Source: Leptolyngbya sp. 'hensonii'
GTDB lineage: Bacteria; Cyanobacteriota; Cyanobacteriia; GCF-001939115
Direction: 5' to 3'
NCBI RefSeq assembly: GCF_001939115.1
Contig: NZ_MQTZ01000003.1
Span: 1-64,000 of the forward strand
DNA length: 64,000 nucleotides
The position numbers and the translations under genes are program-made. Below are positions 1 to 55,090 of this stretch, piece after piece; position 1 is the first letter of the stretch, and every line of letters begins with the position of its first letter. The notes under the pieces were generated by a model, which did no database searches, was not told the DNA's origin, and saw only the letters and a program-made list of their open reading frames with translations.

Positions 1-67
1 GGGAGAGGGGGCAGGGGGGTGAGGGCAAGCAGAAGTTTATCGGTGTTATTTAATTCTCATTCCTAAG
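1..67. repeat. right part of a MITE-like palindromic element (cut by window edge)
   Basis: A G-rich arm (1-25, GGGAGAGGGG...GTGAGGG) is followed by a 22-bp end at 46-67 running from TTATTTAATT to TTCCTAAG. Both parts recur in the complete element at 54960-55090; the 22-bp end differs at two positions. The left half lies outside the window. The stop codon of the neighbouring minus-strand gene (63-65) lies inside this end. Confidence 0.7.
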
Positions 68-1166
68 CCAGTCGATACTTGAGCCAAAAAGCCAGCATGG
101 GCAGCGCAATCCGATAGCCATGCTTGGGACCATACACCAAGCCTTTCTGCTCCAAACTGGTCAGAGCCCCCTGCAATCCCCCTCCCCGAGAGAGTTGATG
201 CCTGCGAATATATTCACGGGAGTGGGGACTATCCGTAGGATCAAGGGCCAAACTTTCCAAAACTCGAACCTGACTGGGGGGCAGGAGAAGAATGAGGGAT
301 TCAAAGGTGACAGACAAATCTTCAACCAGTTCCAGGGCACTCTGATAAACCTGGTGAGCCTGAATCAACCCCGCACCCATGCTTTGCAGACTGTCACCCA
401 TCCGTCTATTCAAGCAGATCCGTCGGAGCAGTGCGAGAGCATCCCCGAAATGCCCCTGAACAAAGCTCAGAAATAGCTGCAGGGCCTGACCTTCTGGGTC
501 AAAGGTCAATCCTTTGAGGGCCAGAGTAGATTCAACCCAATCCCAGAGATCCTGATCAGCCAGGGGTGCGAGAGAAAGCACCTGTAAAGTACTGTCCTGA
601 ACCCAAGATTCTGCGATCGTAGCAATCAGGGCATAGCTAACCCGGCTCTGACACTGGATTTCCTGGCGTAGATAGGCCTCCCATTTACCATGCCGATCCC
701 AGGAACGAATGTGGGGAAAGTTCTGGAAAACCATCACAACGCGACAATCCAGTACCTCAGCCAAATGTTGGGGCAGGCTCAGCAGAATTTGGAACAGCGT
801 CCATTCTCCACCTGCGAAGAGGTTCCAGGTCAGTTGTAGCGCCTCACCGGGGCGTTGTTCTAAACCCAGAGGCTGATGGGCAATCCACTGTTGGATGATC
901 GTCAACTCCTGCTCTTGGCTAAATACCGTCATTAAACTTTCAGCCAGAAGGGTCAGAAAACGGATCGGATCTGTAGCCCGTAAACAATCAATTTCTAAAA
1001 CTCTCGCCCCGACTTGATAGGCTGCTGCTCGAATCAGGGTTCTACGTCCAATCCCGGGAACACCAGCAATCAAGACATCCCCGTCTTCTGCCAGAATTTG
1101 GCTCAATTGCTGCAGTTCACCCTGCCGCCCGATTAAGGAGTGTGGTTCGAATGGATTTTGTGCCAT
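63..1166 (-). CDS. ATP-binding protein with degenerate P-loop and C-terminal winged-helix-like region
   Basis: The 367-residue protein resembles the AAA/Orc-like ATP-binding family: an opening FxRQxEL-type segment, a P-loop near residues 34-42, and a C-terminal part that looks like a winged helix (LTSLEQKGLVYG). The P-loop reads GVPGIGRRT, so the usual GKT lysine is arginine, and the Walker B strand (VVMVFQNF) lacks its acidic residue. ATP hydrolysis is therefore doubtful. I chose the ATG at 1166 because the 54 codons upstream look non-coding and the ordinary family start follows it. The gene is divergent from the P-type ATPase. The stop codon is provided by the repeat end at 46-67. Function unknown. 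Confidence 0.75.
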   Translation of the reverse strand: MAQNPFEPHSLIGRQGELQQLSQILAEDGDVLIAGVPGIGRRTLIRAAAYQVGARVLEIDCLRATDPIRFLTLLAESLMTVFSQEQELTIIQQWIAHQPLGLEQRPGEALQLTWNLFAGGEWTLFQILLSLPQHLAEVLDCRVVMVFQNFPHIRSWDRHGKWEAYLRQEIQCQSRVSYALIATIAESWVQDSTLQVLSLAPLADQDLWDWVESTLALKGLTFDPEGQALQLFLSFVQGHFGDALALLRRICLNRRMGDSLQSMGAGLIQAHQVYQSALELVEDLSVTFESLILLLPPSQVRVLESLALDPTDSPHSREYIRRHQLSRGGGLQGALTSLEQKGLVYGPKHGYRIALPMLAFWLKYRLA

Positions 1167-1366
1167 TACTGCAATGTCATCTCCTGCAGGCCAGGTAATC
1201 AGATTATAGTTAACTCTAATTATTAGTGCCAGATTGCCTGGATTGGCACTATGATCAGGGATGGATCCCTTGCCATTCTTGATCCCATAAACTGGTAAGG
1301 ACAAGATCTTTAGTTCCCCTGCAGGCAAATTCCCTTGCTGTGCATTCTTTCCCCGGACCTTGTGCT

Positions 1367-10469: not shown

Positions 10470-12149
10470 ATGGAAAAAGGCTGGACGGTAAAAGCAAGTA
10501 TTTCTCTCGCGACCTTGCTGGCTTTCACGATCGGACTGGCCGTTCTCCTAAGAGTTTTAAATCTGGGTAGCCGAGAATTCTGGTACGACGAGGTGCTCTC
10601 CCTGGCCCTGTCCACCAGTCAGAGATCCCTCTACGAAACCCCCGGTGACCTCCCTGTTGCTCTGGCTGATCTGGTACCTGCCTTGCAACTGCCGGTTGAA
10701 TTAAGCTTTGGGGATGGGATTCAGTCCCTCCGGAGACTCCTCCTCAGCCTCACAGGGGGAGAACCCCATCCCCCCCTATTTTTCCTGGCCCAGCATGTCT
10801 GGTTGCGGGGCTTCGGTGCCGGAGAAGCTGCCATGCGGAGTCTCAATACCCTACTCAGTTTGGCCGCGATCGCCAGCACCTATGGATTGGGGCGGCTCCT
10901 GCTGGGGCATCTGGGGGGATTAACCCTGGCCGCCCTACTCAGCGTTAATCCCTTTTTTTTATTTCATTCCCTGAACGTCCGCATGTATGCGCCACTGGTT
11001 CTCTGGGCTACCCTCAGTGCCTGGGCCATGCTGCATTTGACGGGCTGGGCTACCCCTGCGCCCCCCACTTCAGAGGCGGCTGCCCCATCCATCTGGCAGC
11101 GTCGTGCCCCTTGGTTCTGGAGCCTAATCTTAATCGCTTCCATCGCAGCAGGGCTGATGACGTTCTATCTATTTTTTTACTGGATTATCACCCTGGCCGC
11201 GATCGCCCTGTTTCTGGATCGACGACGCTGGTGGCAGCATGGGTTGCGGTTGACGATCGGCTTCTTGCTCACCACTCCCTGGCTGCTGTGGGGTTTCACC
11301 AAGCAGTTGCGGAATGCAGACCTGAAACGCTTCAACACTGCGCTGGGTCCGATCGCCACCACCCTCCGCCATCTGCAAGATGTGCTGCAAACCCTGGGCA
11401 ATCACTTAGTGATCGGAGATTGGGCCACCAGTCTGCCTCCTGTCATAGGAATAGTGGATGGCATCGGGGTTCTGCTGCTGTTATTGACCTGTCTCCCCCA
11501 ACTACGCCTTCAGGAACAGCGGCGCTTGGTGGGGGTGGCGCTGATGCTGGGTCTTCTTCCCATGGCCCTGGCCTTAGGCGTGGATATCCTCACAGGCAAA
11601 TTTACAGTCGGGTTCGGTTGGGGTCGCAGTTTGATTTTTATCCTCCCTGGTTGTCTACTACTGCTGATGCTGGCAGTCAGGCAACTCCCACCTCGCTGGA
11701 ATAATCTGGCCCTCACCGGCCTGCTCTTAATTTATCTGAGTAGCAACATCGCCGACTATAGCCTGAGAAGTCGCCAAATCTTTCATGGCATGGCCGCAAT
11801 GATCCAGCCACCGGCTCCGACGCTGATTGTCATGAACTCCAAAGCTTGGGGCCATGTCCTGCGGCTGGCCTATTACCTGCCCAGCAGTCCAGCTAGTTTT
11901 TTGCTGGCCCAAAGATCCTCCGATCTGGCCTCCAGCCTGCAGCAAGTCCTGGCTGCTAACCCCCGCAAGTACGATCGGGTGCTCTGGTTAGACAGTGCTG
12001 CTCCGATCTGGTCTCCTCCCAGCACGGAGGATGAACGATCGACAGTGGCAGCGGTGTTAGCCCGCAGCTTTAAGTTAATTCAGGCCAGGGAGCTGACTGG
12101 CACGATGGAGATTGACCAATTTACGGCCCAACTGTATCAACGTCGCTGA
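10470..12149 (+). CDS. GT-C-fold membrane glycosyltransferase (GT39/ArnT-like)
   Basis: An integral membrane protein of 559 residues with about a dozen hydrophobic segments. After the first helix, the loop SREFWYDEVLSL places Asp40-Glu41 where GT-C enzymes carry their catalytic acid; a second periplasmic motif, PHPPLFFLAQHVWLRGFG, is also typical of polyprenyl-phosphate-sugar-dependent transferases. Acceptor and donor cannot be told from sequence. The gene directly follows galE, which suggests exopolysaccharide or glycoprotein assembly. Its 3' end overlaps upstream in-frame codons of the next gene, but probably not that gene's true start. Confidence 0.82.
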   Translation: MEKGWTVKASISLATLLAFTIGLAVLLRVLNLGSREFWYDEVLSLALSTSQRSLYETPGDLPVALADLVPALQLPVELSFGDGIQSLRRLLLSLTGGEPHPPLFFLAQHVWLRGFGAGEAAMRSLNTLLSLAAIASTYGLGRLLLGHLGGLTLAALLSVNPFFLFHSLNVRMYAPLVLWATLSAWAMLHLTGWATPAPPTSEAAAPSIWQRRAPWFWSLILIASIAAGLMTFYLFFYWIITLAAIALFLDRRRWWQHGLRLTIGFLLTTPWLLWGFTKQLRNADLKRFNTALGPIATTLRHLQDVLQTLGNHLVIGDWATSLPPVIGIVDGIGVLLLLLTCLPQLRLQEQRRLVGVALMLGLLPMALALGVDILTGKFTVGFGWGRSLIFILPGCLLLLMLAVRQLPPRWNNLALTGLLLIYLSSNIADYSLRSRQIFHGMAAMIQPPAPTLIVMNSKAWGHVLRLAYYLPSSPASFLLAQRSSDLASSLQQVLAANPRKYDRVLWLDSAAPIWSPPSTEDERSTVAAVLARSFKLIQARELTGTMEIDQFTAQLYQRR

Positions 12150-54714: not shown

Positions 54715-54900
54715 CTCCCTCACGCCCAGACTCCTCGCGCCCAGGCTCCTCGCACCCAGGCTCTGCTTGGGTGCCCCAGCAGACCCACCCCTACCCCAGA
54801 CTCCTCGCACCCAGGCAGAGCCTGGGTGCCCCAGCGGAATGATCCACTAGCCCAGACTCCTCGCACCCAGGCTCTGCCTGGGTGCCCCAGCGGAATGACC
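54715..54900. repeat. three tandem units of about 55 bp, each with a GCACCCAGGC hairpin
   Basis: Hairpins with 10-bp arms and a 3-base loop are at 54752-54774, 54807-54829 and 54863-54885, each preceded by CAGACTCCTC and followed by CCCAGC. The loop is TCT in copies 1 and 3 and AGA in copy 2; copy 2 is the exact reverse complement of copy 3 within the hairpin while the flanks keep their direction. Copy 1 has one mismatch (CTTGGG). The leading CCCTCCCTCACGCCC also occurs at 20750. Confidence 0.85.
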
Positions 54901-54959: not shown

Positions 54960-55090
54960 CTAAGGAACGAGAATTAAATAAAATGTCAAACTCCTAATTG
55001 CCCTCACCCCCCTCCCCTTCTCCCAAATTTGGGAGAGGGGGAGGGGGTGAGGGCTGAAGAAATCCAGGTTATTTAATTCCCGTTCCTAAG
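54960..55090. mobile_element. 131-bp MITE-like element with 22-bp terminal inverted repeats
   Basis: The left end (54960-54981, CTAAGGAACGAGAATTAAAT...) and the right end (55069-55090, ...ATTTAATTCCCGTTCCTAAG) pair at 20 of 22 positions. Inside is a long hairpin with CCCTCACCCCCCTCCCC / GGGGAGGGGGTGAGGG arms around AAATTT. No coding capacity. The same end and G-rich arm occur at 1-67. Size, ends and lack of genes fit a non-autonomous element; no flanking duplication could be established with confidence. Confidence 0.75.

Follow-up and report, generated by a model that had tools for sequence, protein, structure and literature searches.

The MITE and the two genes that end at its copies

The window analysed here, a 64,000-nucleotide stretch of the Leptolyngbya sp. 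'hensonii' genome in which a codon-bias gene finder written for this analysis placed 45 genes over 54 kb, contains a complete MITE abutting the end of a low-molecular-weight phosphatase gene. A partial copy from another MITE subfamily similarly abuts the first gene of the window, which encodes an AAA-type ATPase-like protein (Table 1). This second copy is only 63 bp long because window position 1 is also position 1 of contig C3; contigs C4 and C30 are equally good candidates for carrying its other half. Alignments of the ATPase-like protein with its orthologues begin only at about residue 40-64, which makes it probable that the true start lies downstream of the annotated TTG at 1328. Immediately left of the complete MITE, positions 54730-54900 harbor several occurrences of a repeat unit of about 50-60 bp (CCCAGACTCCTCGCACCCAGGCTCTGCCTGGGTGCCCCAGC...).

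Table 1. Features of the window at the two gene ends and their MITE copies
Feature	Position	Strand	Remarks
Partial second MITE copy, other subfamily	1..63	-	TIR match at 46-63
AAA-type ATPase-like gene, first in window	63..1328	-	weak PF13191 match, below cut-off; stop TAG 65-63
Target copy of second MITE (minus strand TTA)	64..66	.	
Left target copy TAA	54961..54963	.	identical to 55087-55089
Complete MITE, 123 bp	54964..55086	.	paired TIRs and target duplication
Left TIR, 18 bp	54964..54981	+	GGAACGAGAATTAAATAA
Internal G+C-rich palindrome	55000..55054	.	GCCCTCACCCC...GGGGTGAGGGC
Right TIR, 18 bp	55069..55086	-	GGAACGGGAATTAAATAA
Low-molecular-weight phosphatase gene, 163 aa	55086..55577	-	PF01451, E = 1.4e-42; stop TAG 55088-55086
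Right target copy TAA (minus strand TTA)	55087..55089	.	first two bases (T, A) of the phosphatase stop lie here

The 123-bp element has the anatomy of a MITE, being short, non-coding, bounded by 18-bp terminal inverted repeats (TIRs) and devoid of a transposase gene. Folding of its entire length yielded -79.8 kcal/mol, with a z-score of -10.7 relative to dinucleotide shuffles. The TIR end pattern was matched three times in the window and more than 100 times in the 5.94-Mb genome, whereas shuffles of the window gave an expectation of zero and a reversed-pattern control no match in the genome, which places the end repeat far above chance. The TIRs, the target duplication and the copy number confirm the first-pass annotation, which had described a MITE-like element and had correctly positioned both the repeat end and the two stop codons. 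The 22-bp end with CTTAGG that it had delineated is a genuine repeat end but not the element's own end, as it consists of a C, the TTA of the target and the 18-bp TIR.

A superfamily with a preferred palindromic target

Genome-wide, the superfamily comprises 78 two-ended copies distributed over several subfamilies, mainly 71-150 bp in size with a few longer, together with unpaired ends, several of which are located at contig ends. Most of the 78 two-ended copies display the short target duplication expected of MITEs, here 3 bp of sequence TTA or TAA, preceded mostly by C and followed mostly by G. The target is TWA (TTA or TAA), preferably within the palindrome CTTAG/CTAAG, and CTTAGG therefore reads as the target CTTA followed by the first bases of the element, GG.

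Since every insertion recreates CTTAG/CTAAG targets at both ends, abutting or nested copies are expected, and such arrangements occur at C17:10799-11088, C20:53114-53271, C27:86-169, C28:26202-26342 and C29:47207-47344. The repeat also breaks the assembly, as contigs C3, C4, C9, C17, C27, C30, C51 and C62 terminate within MITE copies. Ends of the same type were found in 13 of 59 genomes of the same class, and a distant cyanobacterial genome (G016) contains at least 45.

Stop codons at element junctions

The first-pass annotation had proposed that the element supplies stop codons to its neighbors and trims or sets their C-termini, in which case a gene should end earlier or later once the element is absent. 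We compared filled sites with empty sites reconstructed by removing the element in silico, and with relatives drawn from the 59 genomes, all of the same class. Fifteen stops lie within one base of a junction, at 14 elements genome-wide, and 14 of these 15, including that of the phosphatase gene, fall on the same codon after removal. The exception, at C69:13657-13727, lacks an intact duplication, and its empty site ends 11 residues later (302 aa vs 313).

A common phase, xxT TAG, had also been suggested from two cases; tabulation over all copies instead gives eight TAA stops lying entirely in the target copy and seven of the T-TA|x type. Six of the latter keep their position, four of them with a swap between TAA and TAG. 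At both named genes, the T and the A of the TAG stop belong to the target copy and the G alone is the terminal base of the MITE. What the element contributes is at most the last base of the codon, which still reads as a stop.

The gene ends of orthologues were read in the same perspective. Matches to the phosphatase occur in 58 of the 59 genomes, and none of the 29 orthologues whose ends were read carries an element there; all stop within seven residues of the last residue of the Leptolyngbya protein, six of them at exactly the same column (L161, L163, L171, L172, L173 and L181). Among the 21 ATPase-like orthologues (two from one genome), all share the same terminal residue except one, which has one additional residue. 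Element-free orthologues ending at the same residue, which the first-pass annotation had itself designated as evidence against C-terminus setting, hence exist for both genes.

Distribution of copies relative to genes

Target occupancy was surveyed at 11,291 TWA sites over 615 kb of element-free sequence, covering stretches around 88 element sites. Sampling was thus centred on elements, the site classes were defined with the data already in view and genes were called with our own finder. CTWAG sites were occupied at 26 of 175 intergenic positions and at 4 of 20 stops, compared with 2 of 188 within genes, while TWA sites with neither the C nor the G were occupied at 4 of 2573. After correction for context, the ratio of observed to expected copies was 0.05 in coding sequence and about 1 near gene starts, where many copies lie. 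It rose to 2.66 times the intergenic average on stops (13 observed vs 4.9 expected, Poisson 0.0016) and to 1.75 times within 100 bp after stops (16 vs 9.2).

Because sites just after stops are also enriched, much of the excess on stops reflects a general tolerance of gene 3' ends, and measured against the 3'-proximal rate the excess has a Poisson value of about 0.09. The excess is thus real when compared with intergenic sites on average, but does not clearly exceed what a general tolerance of 3' ends would give. The sparsity of coding copies and the modest excess on and after stops are best explained by the loss of harmful insertions. From the earlier suggestion that the element either inserts at gene ends or is lost elsewhere, the loss elsewhere is retained, coding insertions being nearly absent, and the setting of C-termini is abandoned.

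A matching insertion sequence of the ISAzo13 family

The assembly, made up of 77 contigs and fragmented at repeats, yielded no intact transposase flanked by these ends. The sole PF07592 match of this genome, an ISAzo13-like copy at C74, was rejected as a partner because it is partial and its ends have diverged, as were the genome's IS5-type transposases (PF13586, PF01609), whose loci show no matching ends. IS5-family elements targeting TNA or YTAR also use a short AT-rich palindromic target, with a transposase of a different family; a link to this family was considered first and dropped.

The transposase with the same ends that the first-pass annotation recommended looking for does occur in related cyanobacteria. 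Two genomes of the same class contain a degenerate or shortened insertion sequence (IS) bearing these ends (L193 and L207), and the protein of this IS type is an ISAzo13 transposase (PF07592, E = 1.4e-78). A scan of named genomes returned 38 loci, including at least 12 copies of a 1298-bp IS in Calothrix sp. NIES-4101, whose TIR is GGATCGTGGATTAAATAA and whose TTA/TAA duplications are mostly perfect; similar ISAzo13-family IS are present in Hydrococcus, Myxacorys and others.

The genome of the window has ends identical to the IS TIR over 18 bases, and for some MITE ends the 18-bp TIR is identical to that of the Calothrix IS or differs by one mismatch. The outer bases GG...CC, the TTA/TAA duplication and, at many copies, the C and G flanks are also shared, so that both the TIRs and the target duplication are those of the autonomous IS, as expected of an ISAzo13 derivative. 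In contrast to the IS, the MITE has no transposase and its interior is a G+C-rich palindrome in which only the subterminal bases are related. These likenesses in sequence suggest that an ISAzo13-family IS sharing its ends and target probably mobilised the MITE. Of the ten Calothrix copies with a duplication that were scored, four are located within genes and no copy coincides with a stop, indicating that young insertions of these ends are not restricted to stops.

Two further features of the ISAzo13-type transposase were observed. Its gene consists of two overlapping frames, of which the second is the -1 frame (L244, L245, L246-L258, L260 and L266; at about positions 587-657 of the IS), and six to eight consecutive A, reading AAAAAAG in several cases, sit right before the first stop, making this overlap a candidate for programmed -1 frameshifting. 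Moreover, the TAA stop of the transposase is located in the right TIR (…LQVI* or …LHFI*, for example in L244-L260), and the IS end therefore does supply the stop of its own gene.

Discussion

We consider it very probable that the element is a non-autonomous MITE, probably mobilised by an ISAzo13-family IS, whose insertion is stop-neutral: the host gene owns the stop and the element preserves it. The transposase would cut at TWA, preferably inside CTTAG/CTAAG, and duplicate 3 bp. A stop can overlap such a target in two ways only, either as a TAA that is the target itself or as a TAA or TAG whose TA ends a TTA target. In the first case the TAA survives insertion intact; in the second, TA is joined to G, the outermost base of the element, to form TAG. 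Any hit on a stop is therefore neutral for the protein, since the TWA target and the G-first end keep a stop. Mobilisation would occur in trans through an ISAzo13 transposase, and genic insertions would be removed by selection, leaving survivors in intergenic regions and on stops.

The element could alternatively be retained at gene ends as a putative terminator or a hairpin stabilising mRNA 3' ends, a role suggested by its very stable fold and by the excess of copies near gene 3' ends. We regard this as unlikely, as the perfect-palindrome anatomy by itself predicts the fold, and many copies lie closer to gene starts, where they occur at the average rate. There is also a small chance that stop neutrality and steering coexist, TWA-target, G-first elements of the ISAzo13 type forming a stop-neutral class that is in addition directed to gene ends, with a real preference for stops.

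A transposase that actively favours gene ends or stops beyond its TWA preference, for example by recognising a transcription-end structure, would account for the roughly 2.7-fold and 1.75-fold excesses on stops and within 100 bp downstream, relative to the intergenic average. Such targeting is nevertheless very unlikely: the excess on stops is about equal to that just after them, as tolerance predicts, and the near-identical Calothrix IS, albeit in a small sample, enters coding sequence without having been seen on stops. The supply of stops by the element, trimming or setting the C-termini of the genes entered, can draw on the terminal G that completes TAG at both named genes, on the exceptional site on C69, which may be a true case, on two copies within likely genes (C11:104122 and C77:2437) and on the fact that all three reading frames are closed within seven codons by TTA/TAA and the TIR together, which means that a gene interrupted by the element would be terminated there. 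The unchanged codon of nearly all junction stops and the ends of the element-free orthologues nevertheless make this reading most improbable, and for the two named genes it is refuted.

The stop-neutral MITE resembles other bacterial MITEs (Chunjie, QMITE2, Correia and others), which are likewise short, non-coding and mainly intergenic, with TIRs, a target duplication and a strong hairpin (PMC10969869). QMITE2 was found mainly in 3' untranslated regions, and the text of the same review mentions neither stop codons nor ISAzo13 (PMC10969869). Compared by description, the MITEs of Anabaena sp. 90 are also cyanobacterial, folded and mostly intergenic (132 of 147), but differ in that 15 of 147 disrupt genes and that their parent IS was not found (PMC3542288). 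Our search of the open literature found no paper on ISAzo13-derived MITEs or stop-neutral insertion, which is weak evidence of absence since most subscription journals lay outside its reach.

The combination of a TWA target and an outer G sets a trap for annotation, because insertion into a stop leaves the protein unchanged and yet mimics a stop supplied by the element. The analysis further links an orphan, high-copy MITE superfamily of cyanobacteria to an ISAzo13-family IS with named intact copies, making mobilisation directly testable.
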